From: Rhodoblastus acidophilus
GTDB lineage: Bacteria > Pseudomonadota > Alphaproteobacteria > Rhizobiales > Beijerinckiaceae
NCBI RefSeq assembly: GCF_025961575.1
Contig: NZ_JAOQNX010000033.1
Location: 1 to 53,197 of the forward strand
Direction of reading: 5' to 3'
Length of the DNA stretch: 53,197 nucleotides
Under the pieces are notes generated by a model. That model saw nothing but the letters and a program-made list of their open reading frames with translations, had not been told where the DNA came from and did no database searches. The translations under genes and the position numbers were made by a program. Of the stretch, positions 25,317-34,800 are shown piece after piece. Position 1 is the stretch's first letter. Each line of letters starts with the position of its first letter.

Positions 25317-25808
25317 TTACGCAGCTTTCTGGATGAACCGCCGCGTCACGGAATCGAGTTGGCTCGACAGCCAGCCCGCCATGGCCTCCTCCTCCTCGCA
25401 GGATTGCCGCAGCGGTCCGATGGCGCCGGTTTCGCCCAGGGCCTCCGCGATGGAGATCAGAGATTTGTAAGCCGCCGTCTCGTAGTTTTCGAAGGCGAAG
25501 CTGGCGAAGGAATTTTTGAGGACTTCGTCTTCCGCCGGCATGTGCGCCACCGCCGCCATATTGCCGAACAGCGACATGGCCGTGTCCTTCAGCGTGGAAG
25601 AGGACTCGCCATAATTTTCCAGGATCGCGTCGATGCGCCGCTGTTGCGTGTAGGTTTCGTCGAGATGCTCTTGAAGGCGCATCTTGATGTCCGGGAAATC
25701 GTCGAGGCGCTCGATCTGGCGCTTGAGCAATTGCTCGGCCTGCGCCTCCATGGCGTGGGCGTTGCTCAGTCCGGCGATGAACAGATTGCGTAAGGCTTCA
25801 TGTGGCAT
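25317..25808 (-). CDS. DUF892 ferritin-like protein (YciE/YciF type)
   Basis: A 163-residue four-helix protein of the YciE/YciF (DUF892) family. LRNLFIAGLSNAHAMEAQAE, LQEHLDETYTQQRRIDAILE and FENYETAAYKSLISIAEALG carry the Glu/His residues of a diiron ferritin-like site. The family is linked to general stress and is often beside catalases. AGAAGGAG precedes the ATG, and the catalase stop is 18 bases upstream, so the two are one operon under an EcfG-like promoter. Confidence 0.9.
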   Translation of the reverse strand: MPHEALRNLFIAGLSNAHAMEAQAEQLLKRQIERLDDFPDIKMRLQEHLDETYTQQRRIDAILENYGESSSTLKDTAMSLFGNMAAVAHMPAEDEVLKNSFASFAFENYETAAYKSLISIAEALGETGAIGPLRQSCEEEEAMAGWLSSQLDSVTRRFIQKAA

Positions 25809-25826
25809 GGAAAAACTCCTTCTCTT

Positions 25827-26702
25827 TCAGTGACGGCCATTTGAGCCGAGGTTCGCGCCGGTGGTCGGCTGCGAATCCGGATCGGAGCGGGTGCGCTCGG
25901 AAAACGCTGTGATGAAGCGGTCCTCTTCCGAGCTGAGCTGGACTTCCGCCTCGCCATTGCCGCCGTCGAGGGGCAAAGCGCTTTCGACATCGTCCAGGCG
26001 GCGCCAGTCCTCGCCGCTGTTCCAGGGGCCGCGCGTCTCGCCATTGCCGTGGGAGGCGTGGACATAGAGATTGGCGAATTCCGGCTTGCCCTGCAGTTTT
26101 CCCGGCGGGAAATTGTCGTGGATGGCGTAGAGCGCCTTTTCAAAACTTTTCTGGTGGGCGATCTCGCGGGTCATCAGGAAGCCGAGCGCGTCCTTGACGT
26201 CGGCGTCGTCGGTGACGTTGATCAGCCGCTCATAGACGATCTTCGCCCGGCTTTCCGCGGCGATGTTGGAGCGCAGGTCGGCGGTGGGGTCGCCGATGGA
26301 ATCGATGTAAGCCGCGCTCCACGGGACGCCCGCCGAATTGGTCAGCGAGGGGCCGCCGCCATAGAGCAGGGCCTCGGTCTGCACCGAACATCCTTGCGAC
26401 AGCGAGCGGTAGAGGTCGGCCTGCTCCTCAGCGCCTTCGGCGAGCTTGCCCTTCGAGCCCTTGTTGAGCATGGCGACGATGCTGCCGATGATTTCGAGAT
26501 GGCTCAGCTCCTCCGTGGCGATGTCCATCAGCATGTCTTTGCGCCCGGGATCGACCTCGCCGAGGGCTTGGGTGAAATAGCGCATGGCGGCGGCCAACTC
26601 GCCCTGCGGGCCGCCGAATTGTTCGAGCATGAAGCTGGCGAGCACCGGATTCGGGCGGGCCACCCGAACCGTGTATTGCAGCTTCTTGTTATGGATGAAC
26701 AT
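25827..26702 (-). CDS. Manganese catalase family protein
   Basis: A 291-residue dimanganese catalase. It starts MFIHNKKLQYTVRVARPNP, as family members do, with GGGAG eight bases before the ATG. Metal-ligand helices are recognisable: MDIATEELSHLEIIGSIVAM (ExxH pair) and a second one in SRAKIVYERLINVTDD, with MTREIAHQKSFEKAL. It removes hydrogen peroxide in the cytoplasm without heme. It is the first gene of the operon with the DUF892 gene, and an EcfG-type promoter lies directly upstream. Confidence 0.93.
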   Translation of the reverse strand: MFIHNKKLQYTVRVARPNPVLASFMLEQFGGPQGELAAAMRYFTQALGEVDPGRKDMLMDIATEELSHLEIIGSIVAMLNKGSKGKLAEGAEEQADLYRSLSQGCSVQTEALLYGGGPSLTNSAGVPWSAAYIDSIGDPTADLRSNIAAESRAKIVYERLINVTDDADVKDALGFLMTREIAHQKSFEKALYAIHDNFPPGKLQGKPEFANLYVHASHGNGETRGPWNSGEDWRRLDDVESALPLDGGNGEAEVQLSSEEDRFITAFSERTRSDPDSQPTTGANLGSNGRH

Positions 26703-26737
26703 CTGTGTCGTCTCCCGCATAGGACAGCTTGCGGAAG

Positions 26738-27300: not shown

Positions 27301-28635
27301 TTACGTCAGCAGAAACGAGAGAAGCGAGCGCATTTCCGCGGGACGCACCGGCTTGCGCAGCATTTCCAGCCCCGCCGCGCGCACCTCGTCCTCCGATTTG
27401 GTGGAATGGTCGGCGGTGACGATCAGCGCCGGAACGTCAGAGCCCAGCGCGGCGCGGACCCGGGCGATCGCTTGGGTGCCGCGCTCGTCATTGTTGAGAT
27501 GCAGGTCGGCGATGACGATATGCGGCGCCGTCGGCAGGGCGCGCAGCCGCTCCAGCGCCTCGTCGCCGGAGGTCGCCACCGCAATGTCGCAGCCCCAGCG
27601 CTCCAAAAGCGCCACCATGGCCTCGCTCACCGAGGGTTCGTTCTCGATCAACAGGATTTTTGCGCCGGCCACGGGAGAGTGGAACAGCCGCATCAACGGC
27701 GGCGGGGCCGGCAGATTTTTGGGAACCGGCGCCGCGCTCGGCAATCGCACGCAAAAAGTGGAGCCGCGGCCGATGTTCGAGGCGAGCCGGATCGGATGGT
27801 CGAGCGCCTGGGCGAAGCGGCGGACGATGGCGAGCCCCAGGCCAAACCCGGTTTCGCCGGGAATGTCGCTGTGGGCGCGCTTGAATTCCTGGAAAATCGC
27901 CTCGCGCTTGGCCTCGGGAATGCCGGGGCCGGTGTCGGAGACCTGCACCATCACCCGGTCGCCGCGCCGCCGCGCGCCCACCAGCACGCCGCCATGGGCG
28001 GTATAGCGCAGAGCGTTGGCGAGCAGGTTTTGCAGGATGCGCCGCAGCATCGACGGATCGGAGCGCACATAGAGTTTGGAGGGGAATATTTTCAGCTTCA
28101 GCCCGCGCTTCTGCGCGAAATAGGCGAAATCGCGCGCAAGGGGCTCCAGCACCTCGTTCAGCTCGAAATCGCGCAGCTCGGGCTTCATCACGCCGGCGTC
28201 GAGTTTCGACAGATCGAGCAGGGTGCGGATCAAATCTTCCAGAGCGACAAGGCTGCGGTCGACCTGCTCGACCAGCACGCTGGCTTCGGGCGCGGCCGGG
28301 AGTTCGCCCAGCGCCGACAAGGCGAGCCGCGCCGCGTTCAACGGCTGCAACAGATCGTGGCCGACCGAGGTAACAAAAGTGGTTTTCAGCGAGGAGGCGG
28401 CTTCGGCCTGACGCTTGGCCTTTTCCAGGGAGCGCATCGCCTGCGATAGTTCCGCGGTGCGGCGGCGCACCTGATGGTCGAGCGAAATGGCGGTTTCAAA
28501 CAGGGAGAAAGCGTTGAACTGGCTGTCGACGGAGCGCTCGACCCGCGACATCAGGGCGCTGTTGATCTTCTCCAGCTTGGCGATGCGCCTTTGCAGCTCC
28601 TCGACACTTTCGCGACCGTGCAGGTTCATGTTCAT
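27301..28635 (-). CDS. Hybrid histidine kinase, NahK-like (HisKA-HATPase-REC)
   Basis: A 444-residue cytoplasmic hybrid kinase with no membrane segment. A coiled coil covers about residues 8-80. The HisKA H-box is VGHDLLQPLNAARLALSAL with His93. The HATPase domain has the N box LQNLLANALRY (about 201), DTGPGIP (about 234) and GFGLGLAIV (about 263). The receiver domain starts near 326 (ILLIENEPSVSEAM), with phospho-acceptor Asp377 in IVIADLHL and the conserved Lys in LRKPVRP. The HDLLQPLNAA H-box variant is typical of NahK-type kinases that pair with FIST/NosP nitric-oxide sensors. Here its ATG overlaps the FIST stop as ATGA, so the two are coupled. Unlike larger NahK proteins, no PAS domain is evident. 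Confidence 0.88.
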   Translation of the reverse strand: MNMNLHGRESVEELQRRIAKLEKINSALMSRVERSVDSQFNAFSLFETAISLDHQVRRRTAELSQAMRSLEKAKRQAEAASSLKTTFVTSVGHDLLQPLNAARLALSALGELPAAPEASVLVEQVDRSLVALEDLIRTLLDLSKLDAGVMKPELRDFELNEVLEPLARDFAYFAQKRGLKLKIFPSKLYVRSDPSMLRRILQNLLANALRYTAHGGVLVGARRRGDRVMVQVSDTGPGIPEAKREAIFQEFKRAHSDIPGETGFGLGLAIVRRFAQALDHPIRLASNIGRGSTFCVRLPSAAPVPKNLPAPPPLMRLFHSPVAGAKILLIENEPSVSEAMVALLERWGCDIAVATSGDEALERLRALPTAPHIVIADLHLNNDERGTQAIARVRAALGSDVPALIVTADHSTKSEDEVRAAGLEMLRKPVRPAEMRSLLSFLLT

Positions 28636-29831
28636 TCCGCCACGTCCTCCCGGCCCCGATGGCCGAGGGCGATTCCCGTAAAAGTCTGATTGACGTGCAT
28701 GGAGCGGAACTGTTCTCCATAGGTGTTGAAGCCAATCACTTTTCTGGCGCGGTAGAGTTCGGAGAGGCGGCGCGAAATCTGGCGGCGCTCGGCGTCGAGC
28801 CGGCGCAGCACACAGTCGAACCCGATATAGAGCGACACCGGGCCGATCTGCTCCTCCATGCTCTCAAACGTCGCCAGCGTGCTCTCATAGGGGTCGCGCG
28901 GCCGGGCGACCGTCAGCACCAGCCCCTCGTCGATGGCGCAGAAGAACGACAAGGAGCCGTCCGGATTCACCTTTTGGATGGAGCGGGCGTAATACTGGCC
29001 GCCCACGCCCACCAGCACCGGATGCGAGGCGAAGGAGGAGGGTTCGAGCTTGCTCTCCATCACCCCGACGGCCCGGGCATATTCGGTTGCGGCCGGCTCG
29101 GCGTTGAGTTCGCGCACGATCCGGGCCTCGGTGTCGGCGTCCGTCACCACCATCTTGTTCTGCGTCGGCTCGAAATAATCGCATTTGAACGGCGCGAACG
29201 GCAGGTCGGTGTGGAACAGCAGCAACAGCGCCGCGTCGCTGTGCACCTTCCCGCCGGCGATCATGAAGGTCTTATCAAAACTCAAGGAGTCGCCGGCGGA
29301 GCCGCCGACCACGGGAATGTCGTCGAGCGCGGAATAAAGCGCCGAAATCACCGCTTCCTCGCGCCGGCACAGGCCGTCGATCAGCAGCAGGCCAAAACAG
29401 TTTTCCGGCTCGATGCGCGGGTCGCTGGCGATCAGGGCGTCGCGCGTCTCGGTGAAGGCGGCGCGGCCGGCCTCGACGGAGAAATGCGACAGGTCCTCGA
29501 CCAGCTGGGCGGCGAGCGTAAAATCGCGGCGCAAAAAGCCCAGCGCCACAATGGTGTTGGAGGTCCAGCCCTCGGGCGCGAGTTCGCCCGCGGTGGTGCA
29601 GCCGTAGATTTCGACGCCGGGCAGCGCGCGATCGATCGCGGCGGCGAATTCAGCGGCGTCGTAACGCGCGCAGACGAAGCAGACCAGGCCGGCGAGCGCC
29701 TCGGGCGGCGTCTCCCCGGGCCGCAATTGCGCGACGATCTGCGCGGCGATCTCGCGGGCCGCCTGTTCGGCGCCGACCGCGCTGCTCGAGGCGATCACCA
29801 CGCCTTCGGCGCGATCCACCACTTCCCTCAC
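28632..29831 (-). CDS. FIST-domain sensor protein, NosP-like
   Basis: About 399 residues with FIST-N (FVCARYDAAEFAAAIDRALP, YGCTTAGELAPEGW, VVGGSAGDSLSFDKTFMIAG) and FIST-C (TATEYARAVG-like stretch, ASHPVLVGVGGQYYARSIQK, and the end RRLSELYRARKVIGFNTYGE). FIST proteins are soluble ligand sensors. The NosP subgroup binds heme and nitric oxide and controls a NahK-type kinase from the adjacent gene (family knowledge). The heme-ligating residue was not assigned. The start is uncertain: a GTG at 29831 is used, because the frame is open far upstream, antisense to the nosR-like gene, without a better start. It is first in an operon with the kinase. Confidence 0.85.
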   Translation of the reverse strand: MREVVDRAEGVVIASSSAVGAEQAAREIAAQIVAQLRPGETPPEALAGLVCFVCARYDAAEFAAAIDRALPGVEIYGCTTAGELAPEGWTSNTIVALGFLRRDFTLAAQLVEDLSHFSVEAGRAAFTETRDALIASDPRIEPENCFGLLLIDGLCRREEAVISALYSALDDIPVVGGSAGDSLSFDKTFMIAGGKVHSDAALLLLFHTDLPFAPFKCDYFEPTQNKMVVTDADTEARIVRELNAEPAATEYARAVGVMESKLEPSSFASHPVLVGVGGQYYARSIQKVNPDGSLSFFCAIDEGLVLTVARPRDPYESTLATFESMEEQIGPVSLYIGFDCVLRRLDAERRQISRRLSELYRARKVIGFNTYGEQFRSMHVNQTFTGIALGHRGREDVAE

Positions 29832-30032
29832 TCCCAACCGACGCTCCCCCCGCCCGAAGGCGGATTTTTTGCGTCTTCGGACCCTTTTTTCCGCCGTTGC
29901 GGGCGGGTCCGCGCGCAATTGTGAGAAAGTACTATAGGCGATGTTTTCCGCCTCGCACAACCTTCGCCGGCCTGAACTTCGTGGTCGCGGGGCGGGCAAA
30001 CAACAGCGCAAAATGCGCGGGCGAGGGTGGGA

Positions 30033-32162
30033 ATGCCAATGAGGAAAAGGCGCGGGCGCTGGCTGTCCGCGCATCTGGGCTTTGTCGTGCTGCTTCTGCT
30101 GGGCTGGGCAAGCGCGGCCTTGGCGGGAACCCTCGACCGCGCCGGCGTCGAAGCCCTGTTTCCCAAACCCTTCATTGTCCAGGATCGCGATCCCGTCCTG
30201 CCGGTCTGGCCGATCTACAAGCAGAGCTACAACGACGACGTGCTCGTCGCCTATTTGTTCGAATCCGAGGATTTCCAGCCGATCCCGGGCTTTTCCGGGA
30301 CGCCGGTGAACCTCGCCATCGCCCTGCGGCCCAATGGCGCTCTGCTCAGCGTACGTGTCCTGTCGCAGCACGAGCCGGTGTTCGTCGATGGGCTCGGACC
30401 GGAGCCGCTGAACGATTTCGTCAAGCAATACGAGGGCCTGTCCCTCAATCAGTCGATCAAGATCGTCCCGCCCGGGCGGGTCGCCGCGAGGAACCGTGAC
30501 GGCGTGGCGGCGGAAATCGACGGCGTGTCCAAGGCCACGGCCTCCGTGCGCATCATCAACGAGACCATCGTCAATTCGGCCTTGCAGGTGGCGCGCGAAA
30601 AGCTCGGCTTTTCCAAAGGACGCGATCCCAACCGCGTCGCCCGGATCAAGGACGAGATTTTCGCGCCGCTGACGTTTGAGCAATTGCTGGCGCGCGGCTA
30701 TATCCGGCGCCTCAGCCTCAGCAATGCCCAGGTCGAGGCCGCCTTTCAGGGAACCGAGGGCGAAAGGCTCGACGAAGAGGCGTTGAAAGCGCCTGACGAG
30801 GCCTTTGCCGACCTTTACATCGCCGAGGTGGACGTCCCCATCATCGGACGCAATCTGCTCGGCGAGGCCAATTGGCGCAAGCTGATGGACCAGCTCGACG
30901 GCGCCCCGGCCATGATGGTGATTTCGGCGGGCCGCTGGACTTTTATGCCGGAGAATTTCGTGCCCGGCGCCACCCCCGACCTGATCGGGCTCGCCCAGGG
31001 CGGCGCGCCCGTCGCCTGGCGCGATTTCGTCTGGCGCGACCGGCTCGACCTTCCGCAATTTTCAAACGCAGACGCCGCAGTGATGCGCATCGCGCCGGAA
31101 GCGGCGTTTGATCCGGCGACGCCCTCGCAATTTTCGATCCGGGTCATCCGCGAAAAAGGCATCGTCTATCCCGAAAAGTTTTCGCGGGATTTCAACCTGG
31201 CTTATAGCCTGCCGCAAAACCTGTTCGACCTGCCGCCGGAGGACAAGGGCCTGGGCCTCGGCTCGATCTGGGCCAGCCGGGCGCGCGACATTTCCATTCT
31301 GGCCGGCGGCCTCGTGGTTTTGGCCTTCGCGCTGGCGCGGCAAAAACTGCTGGTCCGTTCGCCGCGCGCGTTCAAAATCTTCCGGCTGTCGTTCCTGGCT
31401 TTCACCTTGATTTTCATTGGCTGGATCGCCCAGGCGCAGCTCTCCATCGTTTGGCTGTTCGGCCTGATCAAGGCGATCCGGGGGGAGGGGACGTTCCAGT
31501 TCTTCCTGTGGGACCCGCCGACGCTGATGGTGACCTTGTTCGGTCTGGTCGGCCTGTTCATCTGGGGGCGCGGAACCTTTTGCGGCTGGTTGTGTCCGTT
31601 CGGCGCCTTGCAGGAGTTTTTCGGCGAAATCGCGCGCGTGACAAAACTGCGGCAGTTTTCATTGCCGCAGCGCTATGAACGGCTGGCGCGTCTGCCGAAA
31701 TTCCTGGTGCTGGCCGTCATTCTGGTCACCGCCGTCTTCTTCTCCTCGCAAGCGGAAAAGGTCGCGGAAATCGAGCCCTTCAAAACCTCGATCACGCTGA
31801 TCTTCATGCGCTCCGCGCCCTTCGTGCTCTATGCCGTCGCGCTGCTGCTCCTCGGCATGTTCCATTACAAATTCTTCTGCCGCTACCTGTGCCCGCTGGG
31901 CGCCAGCTTTTCCGCGCTGAGTTTTGTCAGGCGCTGGAACTGGATTCCGCGCCGCAAGGAATGCGGCTCGCCCTGCCAGATGTGCCGGGTCAAATGCCGC
32001 TATGGCGCCATCGAACGCGGCGGCGAGGTGGTCTATTCCGAATGTTTCCAGTGCATGGATTGCGTCGTCATCCATGACGATCCCAAGCAATGCGTGCCGG
32101 AGGTGCTGGCGGCGAAAAAGGCGCGCGACGCCAGGCGAAAACAACTGGAGCCCGCGCAATGA
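30033..32162 (+). CDS. nosR: NosR/NirI-family flavo-iron-sulfur membrane protein
   Basis: A 709-residue protein with NosR architecture. It has a signal/anchor (about 11-32), then a periplasmic FMN-binding domain with the flavinylation motif DGVSKATAS (163-171, Thr169 the likely FMN site). Several membrane helices from about residue 410 carry CGWLCPFGALQEF and FCRYLCPLGASF. The C-terminal ferredoxin-like cluster motifs are CGSPCQMCRVKCRYGAI and ECFQCMDCVV, then KQCVP. NosR donates electrons to nitrous oxide reductase and is needed for nosZ expression, and NirI is a homologue. No nosZ or nosDFYL genes follow, so the symbol reflects family only. It is divergent from the NosP-like/NahK-like pair and convergent with the GGDEF-EAL gene. 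Confidence 0.88.
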   Translation: MPMRKRRGRWLSAHLGFVVLLLLGWASAALAGTLDRAGVEALFPKPFIVQDRDPVLPVWPIYKQSYNDDVLVAYLFESEDFQPIPGFSGTPVNLAIALRPNGALLSVRVLSQHEPVFVDGLGPEPLNDFVKQYEGLSLNQSIKIVPPGRVAARNRDGVAAEIDGVSKATASVRIINETIVNSALQVAREKLGFSKGRDPNRVARIKDEIFAPLTFEQLLARGYIRRLSLSNAQVEAAFQGTEGERLDEEALKAPDEAFADLYIAEVDVPIIGRNLLGEANWRKLMDQLDGAPAMMVISAGRWTFMPENFVPGATPDLIGLAQGGAPVAWRDFVWRDRLDLPQFSNADAAVMRIAPEAAFDPATPSQFSIRVIREKGIVYPEKFSRDFNLAYSLPQNLFDLPPEDKGLGLGSIWASRARDISILAGGLVVLAFALARQKLLVRSPRAFKIFRLSFLAFTLIFIGWIAQAQLSIVWLFGLIKAIRGEGTFQFFLWDPPTLMVTLFGLVGLFIWGRGTFCGWLCPFGALQEFFGEIARVTKLRQFSLPQRYERLARLPKFLVLAVILVTAVFFSSQAEKVAEIEPFKTSITLIFMRSAPFVLYAVALLLLGMFHYKFFCRYLCPLGASFSALSFVRRWNWIPRRKECGSPCQMCRVKCRYGAIERGGEVVYSECFQCMDCVVIHDDPKQCVPEVLAAKKARDARRKQLEPAQ

Positions 32163-32165
32163 GCT

Positions 32166-34682
32166 TTACGCGCAACGAGCGAACGCCTTGTCGCCGTTGA
32201 GCGCCGCACAGCTGGTCGCGCGGCAGATCAGATGGTCTCGCCCGAGCCGCTTGCAGACCGGCTTGGGCGCGCCGACCGCATAGCCCTGCGCGTAATCGAT
32301 GCCCAGGTCGCGCAGCGCGCCGATGATCGCGTCGCTCTCGGCAAATTCGGCGATGGTCTTCTTGCCGAGTTTCTTGGCCATGCGCGCGATCATGTCGACC
32401 ATGGCGTGGTCGATGGGATCGACCAAAATATCCTTCACGAAACCGCCGTCGATCTTGAGATAATCGACGGGCAGGCGCTTCAAATAGCCGAACGAGCTCA
32501 TGCCCGCGCCGAAATCGTCGAGCGAAAACTTGCAGCCGATCGCCCGAACCGTTTCGATGAAGCGGGTCGCCTCCTCGAGACTGGCGATGGCGGTGGTTTC
32601 GGTGATCTCGAAGGTGATCGCCGAGGGGGATATCGGATAGGCCAGGAACTGGGACCCGACGAAGTCGATGAAGGTGGGATCGTCGAGACTCTGCCCCGAC
32701 AGATTGATGGCGCAGCGGATCGGCGCGCCGGGCGAAGCGATTTCGGCGAGATTGCTGAAGGCGGCGTTGACCACCCAGCGATCGATCGCCGGCATCAGGC
32801 CATAGCGTTCGGCGGCCGGAATGAAGCTGCCGGGCGGCACCAGCTTGCCCTGCTCGTCGCGCATGCGCACCAGCAATTCGCAATGTCCGTCCGCCGCATC
32901 GGCTTGCAGCGCGGCGATCGGCTGGGCGTAGAGACGCAGCCGTCCCTTGTCGAGGGCGTCGCGGATCTTGTGCACCCAGCCCATTTCGCTGACCCGGCGC
33001 AGAATTTCGGCGCCGCTGGCCTCGTGCAGCTCCACGCGGTTGCGGCCCTTGTCCTTGGCCATGTAGCAGGCCACGTCGGCGGCGCGAAAAACCTCGGCCG
33101 CATTGGAGGTCGCGCCGATATGGGCGACGAGGCCGATGCTGGCGGTGATCTTGAACGGGCGTCCCTCCCAGACGAAGGTGAAGTCCTGGATCGCCTCGCG
33201 CAATTTCTCCGCGATCGCCATGGCGCGCACGACGTCGCAGCCGGTGAGATGGGCGGCGAATTCGTCGCCGCCGAGGCGCACGGGCAGGCCGGCCTCGCCC
33301 AGCTCCAGTTTCAGCAGCGTCGCGACCTCGCGCAGCAGCTGGTCGCCGGCGGCGTGGCCGCAGGTGTCGTTGACCAGCTTGAACTGGTCGAGATCGAGCA
33401 GGGCGAGCGCATCCTCGCCGTCGCCGCCATCCGCCGCCGTCTGGCGGAGCCTGCGGTCGAGCTCCCGCCGGTTGGCGAGCCCGGTCAGTTCGTCGTGGCT
33501 CGCCTGCCATTTGAGGCGGGCGATCAGGTCGCGCTCGCGCCGCATATCGCGCAGCACGAGCACCGCGCCGAAAACGCCGCCGCCGGTGATCAGGGGTTCG
33601 CCGTGAACCGAAATCGGTGTGGTCCCCGCCGCCGTCACCAGCGCGAGTTCGCGGGTGGAATCGTCCTGCGGCTCCCCCCTGAGCAGGGCCTCGAGGGAGC
33701 GCTCGCAGGTCTCGTTGGTGAGCTGATCGACGATGGTGACCACCGACGCGATGGTCCGGCCCAGGACGTCGGCGGCCCGCAGGCCCAGCAGACGCTCGGC
33801 GGCGGGATTGACATATTCGATGCAAGCGTCGGCGTCGACGCGGATCACGCCATCGGCGATCGCCTGCAGCGTGACCTGCGCCTGCTCCTTCTCGTCGCGC
33901 AGGGCGTCCTCGAACCGGCCGCTGCGCCGGAACAGGGCGCGCATGCGCCAGACCACCAGCGCCGTCAGCGCGAAGGCCAGGGCGATATTGGCGATGGTCA
34001 GCTGCCGCGTCACCTCGCGCGTCCCCTCGCTCAGCGCCTGCGAGAAGCGCAGCGCCTTGGCCTGGAAGGTGGCGTCGAAGTCGCGGAGATAGGCGCGCAA
34101 CGCCTTGTCGCTCGCCGGCCGGTCGCCGCGCGCAATGCGGGCGCGGATGGTCTCGCCGAGCGCGACCAGCTCCGCCAGCATGGCGTCGGACTCGCGCCAG
34201 ATCGCCGTGGCTTCGCGAAAGTGGCTGTAATCGTGAAAGTTGATGTAGATGAACATCAACCCGGCGATGTCGTCGGGATGAACGCCGACCTTCAGGAAAT
34301 GCGCGGCGGCGGCGGCGCGATCCGGCTCGGGCTGTTCCAGCGCCTGGCGTCCGTGATTGTGTTCGAAATTCTCCGCAACGGCCGCACGAAACCTCTGGAA
34401 ATTCTCCTCGTCGCCGAGATGCAGATATTGGTTGAGCTCGTTGAAGGCGTTTTTTTGCGATTTCGACCAGACGCTCTCGCAGGCGATGAAGACGCGCAGG
34501 ATCGACAGGGTGTGCAGGCTCGCCGTCGCCACCAGCGCCAGGATCGCGATCACCAGCGCGGGCAGGGCCATCCGCCGCACCAGGCCGGGACTGGCCGCGC
34601 GCGCCTTGCCTGCGCCGGGGGGGCGGGGCGGCTGCGCGCGGCGGGCGGCGCTGCAGTATTTGAAGAGATCGACAGAAGTCAT
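32166..34682 (-). CDS. Membrane-bound PAS-GGDEF-EAL c-di-GMP protein
   Basis: An 838-residue protein. Two membrane helices (about 38-60 and 225-250) enclose a periplasmic domain rich in helices. A PAS domain follows (about 275-390, with GVIRVDADACIEYVNPAAER). The GGDEF domain (about 395-560) keeps RLGGDEFAAHL, but no RxxD inhibitory site precedes it. The EAL domain (about 570-820) has ELLVRM, INLSGQSL, FEITET, SLDDFGAGMSSF, LKIDGGF, AEFAES and AQGYAVG, so catalytic residues of both domains appear present. It could make or degrade c-di-GMP. The start at 34682 was chosen because upstream candidates are non-ATG. It converges on the nosR-like gene with three bases between stops. Confidence 0.93.
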   Translation of the reverse strand: MTSVDLFKYCSAARRAQPPRPPGAGKARAASPGLVRRMALPALVIAILALVATASLHTLSILRVFIACESVWSKSQKNAFNELNQYLHLGDEENFQRFRAAVAENFEHNHGRQALEQPEPDRAAAAAHFLKVGVHPDDIAGLMFIYINFHDYSHFREATAIWRESDAMLAELVALGETIRARIARGDRPASDKALRAYLRDFDATFQAKALRFSQALSEGTREVTRQLTIANIALAFALTALVVWRMRALFRRSGRFEDALRDEKEQAQVTLQAIADGVIRVDADACIEYVNPAAERLLGLRAADVLGRTIASVVTIVDQLTNETCERSLEALLRGEPQDDSTRELALVTAAGTTPISVHGEPLITGGGVFGAVLVLRDMRRERDLIARLKWQASHDELTGLANRRELDRRLRQTAADGGDGEDALALLDLDQFKLVNDTCGHAAGDQLLREVATLLKLELGEAGLPVRLGGDEFAAHLTGCDVVRAMAIAEKLREAIQDFTFVWEGRPFKITASIGLVAHIGATSNAAEVFRAADVACYMAKDKGRNRVELHEASGAEILRRVSEMGWVHKIRDALDKGRLRLYAQPIAALQADAADGHCELLVRMRDEQGKLVPPGSFIPAAERYGLMPAIDRWVVNAAFSNLAEIASPGAPIRCAINLSGQSLDDPTFIDFVGSQFLAYPISPSAITFEITETTAIASLEEATRFIETVRAIGCKFSLDDFGAGMSSFGYLKRLPVDYLKIDGGFVKDILVDPIDHAMVDMIARMAKKLGKKTIAEFAESDAIIGALRDLGIDYAQGYAVGAPKPVCKRLGRDHLICRATSCAALNGDKAFARCA

Positions 34683-34800
34683 TTCACCCAACGAGACTCC
34701 GGGCGCATGACGCGTTCCGCGCGCTCGAATTCATCAGAAACAGTTTAACAATCCCTGATTGTAGAATTGCGGATGGAATACATGGGGTTGTTTCCCCGAG

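Follow-up and report, generated by a model that had tools for sequence, protein, structure and literature searches.

A NosP/NahK-type FIST-kinase pair opposite a NosR-like gene in Rhodoblastus acidophilus and its possible role in pyrroloquinoline quinone-dependent alcohol oxidation

Described systems and the Rhodoblastus locus

NosP, a FIST protein, has been studied as a nitric oxide (NO) sensor for biofilms, and NosP systems of other bacteria act on cyclic di-GMP (c-di-GMP) enzymes (PMC8846402, PMC12570481). In NosP-NahK (PA1975-PA1976/ErcS') of Pseudomonas aeruginosa and PP_2663-PedS1 of P. putida, a FIST protein is paired with a soluble hybrid kinase, with a LuxR-type regulator close by and a cluster for a pyrroloquinoline quinone (PQQ) dehydrogenase (PMC12997753). 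Here we describe a pair of this kind on a contig of Rhodoblastus acidophilus (NZ_JAOQNX010000033.1 of assembly GCF_025961575.1; the whole stretch of 53,197 nucleotides is referred to as the window), in which the FIST and kinase genes are divergent from a full-length NosR-type gene. The locus differs from the Pseudomonas systems in the NosR-like gene opposite FIST, in the location of the regulator and dehydrogenase on another contig, and in its short kinase of 444 amino acids, compared with the 854 positions of the NahK model.

The NosR-like protein also has described relatives. NapH-like flavoproteins encoded in exaA clusters (Meheust 2021) resemble it in having a flavin mononucleotide (FMN) site and a membrane iron-sulfur protein, and share the company of a PQQ alcohol oxidase and ApbE; their association with an ethanol oxidase has been published for 172 genomes, and they may pass electrons from this oxidase into respiration (PMC8238504). 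The window gene differs in that no ApbE or dehydrogenase gene is adjacent to it and its partner is the FIST-kinase pair, and no mention of FIST beside NapH-like flavoproteins was found in the excerpt of that paper. NosR of nosRZDFYL(X) clusters and NirI of nirS clusters have the same domain layout and cysteine motifs as the window protein, whereas the latter falls in a separate tree group, and none of 80 named loci of this group (the 80 most similar to the window's clade out of 583) carried NosZ, NosD or NirS. An initial annotation of this DNA had suggested that NosR serves "another electron path", which is supported in the sense that its group keeps no company with nosZ. For another NosP operon, an HD-GYP response regulator has been named NosR, a name which clashes with the flavo-iron-sulfur NosR and may mislead annotation (PMC12570481). 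MxaY-MxaB provides a further parallel: in related bacteria this kinase and regulator control PQQ methanol dehydrogenases, and MxaY is described as a plasma-membrane sensor (PMC9291206), whereas in the window kinase neither a sensor nor a membrane domain was called and a FIST protein is its partner.

Our best explanation, to which we would give about an even chance, is that the NosP/NahK-type sensor controls PQQ alcohol oxidation and that the NosR-like protein is the membrane electron wire of this process. The set probably tunes alcohol oxidation rather than nitrous oxide (N2O) breathing. Both halves of this explanation are partly in print, as the NapH-like flavoprotein with ethanol oxidase and as nosP-nahK by the Pseudomonas ped/exa cluster; no title or abstract joining FIST-kinase pairs with a NosR-like protein was found in a literature search that covered few subscription papers. 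If it is true that kin of the pair often lie in alcohol-dehydrogenase regulons, in several lineages with a NosR-like protein, the family's natural signal and output become testable in laboratory methylotrophs or P. putida. The locus also warns against counting a nosR annotation without nosZ as a denitrification gene. Below, G000 denotes the genome itself, C2, C6, C8 and C16 its contigs, other G numbers the compared genomes and L numbers loci.

Protein families and gene company

The NosR-type protein has 711 amino acids with DGVSKATAS at position 165, CGWLCP at 519 and CRYLCP at 618, followed by eight more cysteines; Thr171 and all twelve cysteines are invariant in 16 aligned relatives. The flavin-site threonine, the CX3CP motifs and the two iron-sulfur cysteine sets place it in the NosR/NirI superfamily. 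Both the motif and the full length had been recognized initially, but a lysine replaces the glycine of the usual flavin motif, [S/T]GA[S/T] (PMC8238504). The score with the NosR equivalog model NF046105 (Table 1) is below the cut-off of 1000 bits. This cut-off is strict, as a nosZ-linked NosR of the same family also misses it (828.9 bits), yet the window protein is the furthest of the three compared, with a nirS-linked protein scoring 605 bits. In a FastTree tree of 116 NosR-type proteins, computed with a long-branch warning, the six nirS-linked proteins formed one group, the ten nosZ-linked proteins another, and the window protein fell in a third group of 100, the size of which is uninformative about its share in nature because the named rows were chosen by similarity to that clade. 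L048 was omitted since its NosR is truncated at a contig end. In the tree the NosR of G147 is placed beside a Methylobacterium NosR (L051, L121), which points to Beijerinckiaceae, the family of Methylobacterium. A further NosR-like copy, with 71% identity to the window protein, lies at G000:C8:45574-47625 (L033:8921-11059) beside a PQQ-dehydrogenase with the motif TPNDAWDFSG, with serine where others have aspartate, as also in G123 and G071. A third NosR-type copy in G143 (L044:14981-17155) shares 43% identity with the window protein; ApbE follows it, no PQQ marker is present, and the canonical nosRZ cluster is 11 kb away.

Five PQQ markers were scored, which were named from NCBI models for reference proteins ("XoxJ-like" being a label for a substrate-binding-type protein). 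At least one was present in 55 of the 80 named NosR-like loci: PQQ-dehydrogenase in 40, XoxJ-like in 36, PedF in 36, PQQ ATP-binding cassette (ABC) binding protein in 26 and PQQ beta-propeller in 32. ApbE was found in 52 of the 80, and 31 of the 43 loci with nearly full 10-kb flanks had a PQQ marker. Within the window's own family of 32 loci, PQQ markers were found in 9 of 16 loci linked to neither nosZ nor nirS, and in none of the 10 nosZ-linked or 6 nirS-linked loci (L044, which carries one nosZ-linked and one other NosR, was scored as nosZ-linked). In the tree the window protein groups with proteins from PQQ-dehydrogenase clusters.

The FIST-kinase pairs were surveyed in a phylum-wide draw of 397 genomes, 94 of which contained a match to the window FIST protein. 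From 111 places, 100 were fetched, comprising 89 stronger loci (at least 143 bits) and 11 weaker loci with open frames of 673-1227 amino acids, putative fusions, which served as a contrast set; the 11 unfetched places were two in the R. acidophilus genome itself and nine weak, partial or repeat matches. A kinase was scored as next door in 65 of the 89 stronger loci, and a LuxR-type regulator was found in 48 of these 65 pairs. A PQQ marker within about 9.5 kb was present by 25 of the 65 pairs, compared with none of the 24 unpaired stronger loci (which include L189, L193, L217 and L254, with a kinase call in other geometry) and none of the 11 weaker loci; without correction for kinship, Fisher's test gave P = 4e-6 for 25/65 against 0/35 and P = 1e-4 against 0/24. 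FIST and kinase were both present in 7 of the 80 named NosR-like loci, scattered over separate parts of the tree. At L247:6896-12675, NosR-like, FIST and kinase genes are co-directional with overlapping frames and form a compact unit, with no PQQ marker in the stretch.

Apart from the three domains listed in Table 1, no further domain was called by Pfam in the kinase. Its motif HDLLQPLNAA, which the initial annotation had pointed out as the H-box, lies at residue 93. The protein exceeds the cut-off of 400 bits for NF041832 (NahK/ErcS subfamily) and is below that of the NahK model NF041831 (352.7 bits, cut-off 1500), of which only positions 480-854 were matched. The FIST protein covers the full NosP model NF041558 (cut-off 450), a cut-off reached by four of eight other kinase-linked FIST proteins, namely L203 (592.4 bits, from a Pseudomonas-ped-like locus) and L140, L142 and L247 from loci with a NosR-like gene. 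By the NCBI models, the two proteins would be a NosP/NahK-type pair, as had been suggested initially, with the kinase over its cut-off and FIST, over the full model length, just under its own. As family members they are ordinary. His379 is retained in 84 of 84 kinase-linked FIST proteins versus 17 of 21 other FIST proteins, and is a candidate heme ligand only. The other FIST gene of the genome, at G000:C2:168233-169297 (L002:283-2349), is part of a 690-codon frame which by eye resembles a FIST-chemoreceptor fusion without an equivalent of His379. An AlphaFold model of the window FIST protein (mean predicted local distance difference test score 91.5, predicted template modelling score 0.90) was used for a Foldseek search, in which the matches at E 0.001 or better were to FBXO22 and cyclic-amide-hydrolase (Toblerone) folds; this carries no information on heme. 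Sequence searches of solved structures gave no match for FIST or NosR.

The FIST stop and kinase start overlap as ATGA, and this overlap, the coordinates and the strands had been given correctly. The likeliest, putative start of FIST is a GTG at 29831, giving 399 amino acids, and the true start of the NosR-like gene may be an ATG a few codons inside the annotated one. The divergent order of FIST and NosR is kept in all seven other same-genus loci holding both flanks, and the arrangement therefore exceeds chance; in all eight such loci, including the window, the pair stands opposite a NosR-like gene of the PQQ-linked group. The initial annotation had noted that no nosZ or nosDFYL follow within 20 kb; no nosZ or nosD was called within the window, and NirS was not called there either. 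Downstream of the kinase (window 25317-26720) are genes which by eye are manganese-catalase-like and DUF892-like, and homologues of both are found near the kinase in L037.

Table 1. Coordinates of the features of the locus in the window
Feature	Position	Strand	Basis
NahK/ErcS-family soluble hybrid histidine kinase	27301..28635	-	Pfam HisKA, HATPase_c, receiver; NF041832 405.9 bits
NosP-like FIST protein	28632..29831	-	FIST and FIST_C; NF041558 430.6 bits, model 1-368 of 368
AAAGTACTATAGGCGATGT block with core AAAGTACNAT, proposed regulator site	29926..29944	+	Footprint, recurrence, controls
NosR-like membrane flavin/iron-sulfur protein, PQQ-linked group	30027..32162	+	Motifs, NosR model 530 bits, tree
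GGDEF-EAL gene	32166-34691	-	Far side of nosR

A shared DNA element and the regulator on contig C6

Between FIST and nosR, the 19-base block AAAGTACTATAGGCGATGT is unchanged in eight same-genus genomes while the surrounding sequence drifts. Its core AAAGTACNAT is found again at the pedF 5' end, in the C6 cluster of the same genome as well as in L043 and L046. Sites matching AAAGTAC[AT]AT were found 25 times, 24 of them inside 5' windows of panel genes (9.4% of the bases in the loci used), while reversed sequences contained 2 sites. With any base allowed at the eighth place, 28 of 36 sites were in 5' windows, compared with 10 sites in reversed sequences. The printed P value for the enrichment of AAAGTAC[AT]AT, 5e-24, is far too small because the motif was itself suggested by 8 of the 25 sites and further sites are closely related. 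These counts and those that follow leave out L049, whose NosR is identical to that of L095, and L065-L094. With one mismatch allowed and the genus excluded, the element preceded 13/45 PQQ ABC binding-protein, 11/50 pedF, 10/104 nosR-type, 10/94 FIST, 5/54 regulator, 4/58 beta-propeller, 3/71 ApbE, 3/49 XoxJ-like and 2/86 kinase genes, compared with 43/2014 other genes, where a site between divergent genes may count twice. It was not seen before any of 10 nosZ or 6 nirS genes. A text search of the literature for the letters of the element gave no paper on the subject by title.

A candidate regulator was found through Methylopila (L105), where a regulator gene adjoins the kinase. Its closest relative in G000 is C6:87006-87656 (47% identical), which lies 279 bp from a PQQ-dehydrogenase gene; in nine of nine same-genus genomes searched, the closest relative likewise adjoins a PQQ-dehydrogenase, with gaps of 271-435 bp. 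On the C6 stretch (L275), the LuxR-type regulator is accompanied by PedF, an XoxJ-like protein and a PQQ-dehydrogenase carrying the motif TPHEGWDFDG, and no kinase of the window type was called there. We take the second aspartate of the motif as a mark of lanthanide use, and the genes behind the cluster are presumably an ABC transporter and pqqC. In L043 (G143), kinase-FIST, NosR-ApbE, the regulator and dehydrogenase-XoxJ-PedF all lie within 13 kb, and the same gene set is found within 13 kb in L046 (G171), where the regulator was missed by the gene caller and placed via a genome search. On C16, the second-best kinase (42% identical) lies 4.5 kb from another copy of the regulator, and since these two lie together, the C6 regulator remains by elimination as the partner of the window kinase. 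Of the two ApbE genes in the genome, neither lies by nosR.

Proposed mechanism and alternative explanations

In the mechanism we propose, the cytoplasmic FIST protein, probably with heme as a candidate cofactor, would set the activity of the kinase. The phosphoryl group would most likely pass to the LuxR-type response regulator on C6, the putative phosphotransfer partner, whose gene lies next to those for the PQQ alcohol/methanol dehydrogenase, the PedF cytochrome and the XoxJ-like protein. This regulator may then act, by binding DNA, on AAAGTACNAT both upstream of the cytochrome gene and in the FIST-nosR intergenic region. An ApbE from another part of the genome would attach the periplasmic flavin of the NosR-like protein, and electrons may travel through this flavin and the iron-sulfur clusters between the cytochrome of alcohol oxidation and the quinone pool, along a path and in a direction which we infer. 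The observed part of this explanation consists of the domains, families, tree group, gene company and shared DNA element.

Several observations weigh against this explanation. The FIST protein scores below the NosP cut-off, the flavin motif of the NosR-like protein is altered, and neither PQQ-dehydrogenase nor ApbE was called within the window. The best model for the C6 regulator is ErdR, with 173.9 bits against a cut-off of 390. No PQQ marker was present in 25 of the 80 NosR-like loci, or in 12 of the 43 with nearly full flanks. The link of FIST-kinase pairs to PQQ is common but not general, as 40 of the 65 pairs show no marker, and a NosR-like gene was near only 3 of the 89 FIST loci, all three without a PQQ marker. 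The element, with one mismatch allowed, stood before none of 56 dehydrogenase genes outside the genus; it was found by looking and its sites are partly kin.

A wider proposal can be made only tentatively. FIST/NahK pairs across Pseudomonadota may at root control periplasmic, often lanthanide-type, PQQ alcohol oxidation, in one regulon with the NosR-like flavin/iron-sulfur wire and the shared AAAGTACNAT; alcohol respiration would then be gated by NO, heme or redox state, with the role in biofilms known from other bacteria as a side branch.

We consider it unlikely, but the most serious of the alternatives, that the FIST-kinase pair senses NO and controls c-di-GMP or motility, and that the NosR-like gene is a neighbour which merely shares the intergenic region. 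The pair belongs to the NosP/NahK families, NosP systems elsewhere act on c-di-GMP enzymes (PMC8846402, PMC12570481), and a GGDEF-EAL gene is indeed present on the far side of nosR, from which the initial annotation had suggested a c-di-GMP link. However, this link was not supported, as the GGDEF-EAL gene is not conserved and clusters with no gene of the other 32 loci fetched from the window's NosR family. In the majority of pairs a LuxR-type regulator is found instead, the DNA element is shared, and a chance neighbour would fit poorly with both the divergent order in the same-genus loci and the company of NosR-like, FIST and kinase genes in seven named loci.

It is less probable still that the NosR-like protein works in reverse, passing quinol electrons to an unnamed periplasmic reductase or maturation step, and lies near alcohol oxidation for redox balance only. 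In characterised systems NosR is regarded as donating electrons to its reductase (PMC12052999), and the NosR-like loci without a PQQ marker would be compatible with such a role, but the commonest markers nearby are dehydrogenase, PedF and XoxJ-like genes, and in the proposal of Meheust and co-authors the electrons come from the alcohol oxidase (PMC8238504).

A unit for NO and N2O around NosR, as proposed in the initial annotation, was not supported. No match to the clade I NosZ model at E 0.001 was found in G000, G123, G158 or G071, all of which carry the full NosR/FIST/kinase arrangement, while 10 of 20 searched genomes exceed its cut-off; G033 and G197 had matches below the cut-off only (270 and 266 bits). 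This model superseded a nos_propeller search of the genome which matched no control, and now included positive genomes. With the clade III NosZ model, 0 of 11 genomes were over the cut-off, and no control was over it either. In the same-genus genomes G100, G143 and G171, nosZ lies beside its own canonical nosR in addition to a window-type NosR-like gene, and in G184 of the same genus nosZ and nirS are present without any close copy of the window NosR-like gene. The initial annotation had named a nosZ elsewhere with its own nosR, and an arrangement that is not conserved, as telling against its proposal; the former holds in three relatives, whereas the arrangement is conserved. The N2O reading thus fails because clade I nosZ was not found here and nosZ-bearing relatives use a separate canonical nosR, and on these sequence comparisons the window NosR-like gene would be no part of N2O respiration. 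Coupling of NO sensing by FIST to N2O or NO turnover via NosR, in keeping with the family names and with nosZ and nirS in some same-genus genomes, is accordingly very improbable given the full arrangement without a clade I nosZ match in four genomes, the converse in G184, and FIST in 0/10 nosZ-linked and 0/6 nirS-linked NosR loci of the family.

An ammonia/particulate methane monooxygenase (AMO/pMMO) model matched 0 of 9 same-genus genomes, and no control either; with two reaction-centre matches in the R. acidophilus genome, an assignment of the genus to Methylocystis was dropped. The genus splits in two. G033, G100, G143, G171 and G197 have ApbE beside the NosR-like gene and no reaction-centre match. 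G000, G123, G158 and G071 carry reaction-centre genes and show neither a clade I nosZ match nor ApbE beside the NosR-like gene.

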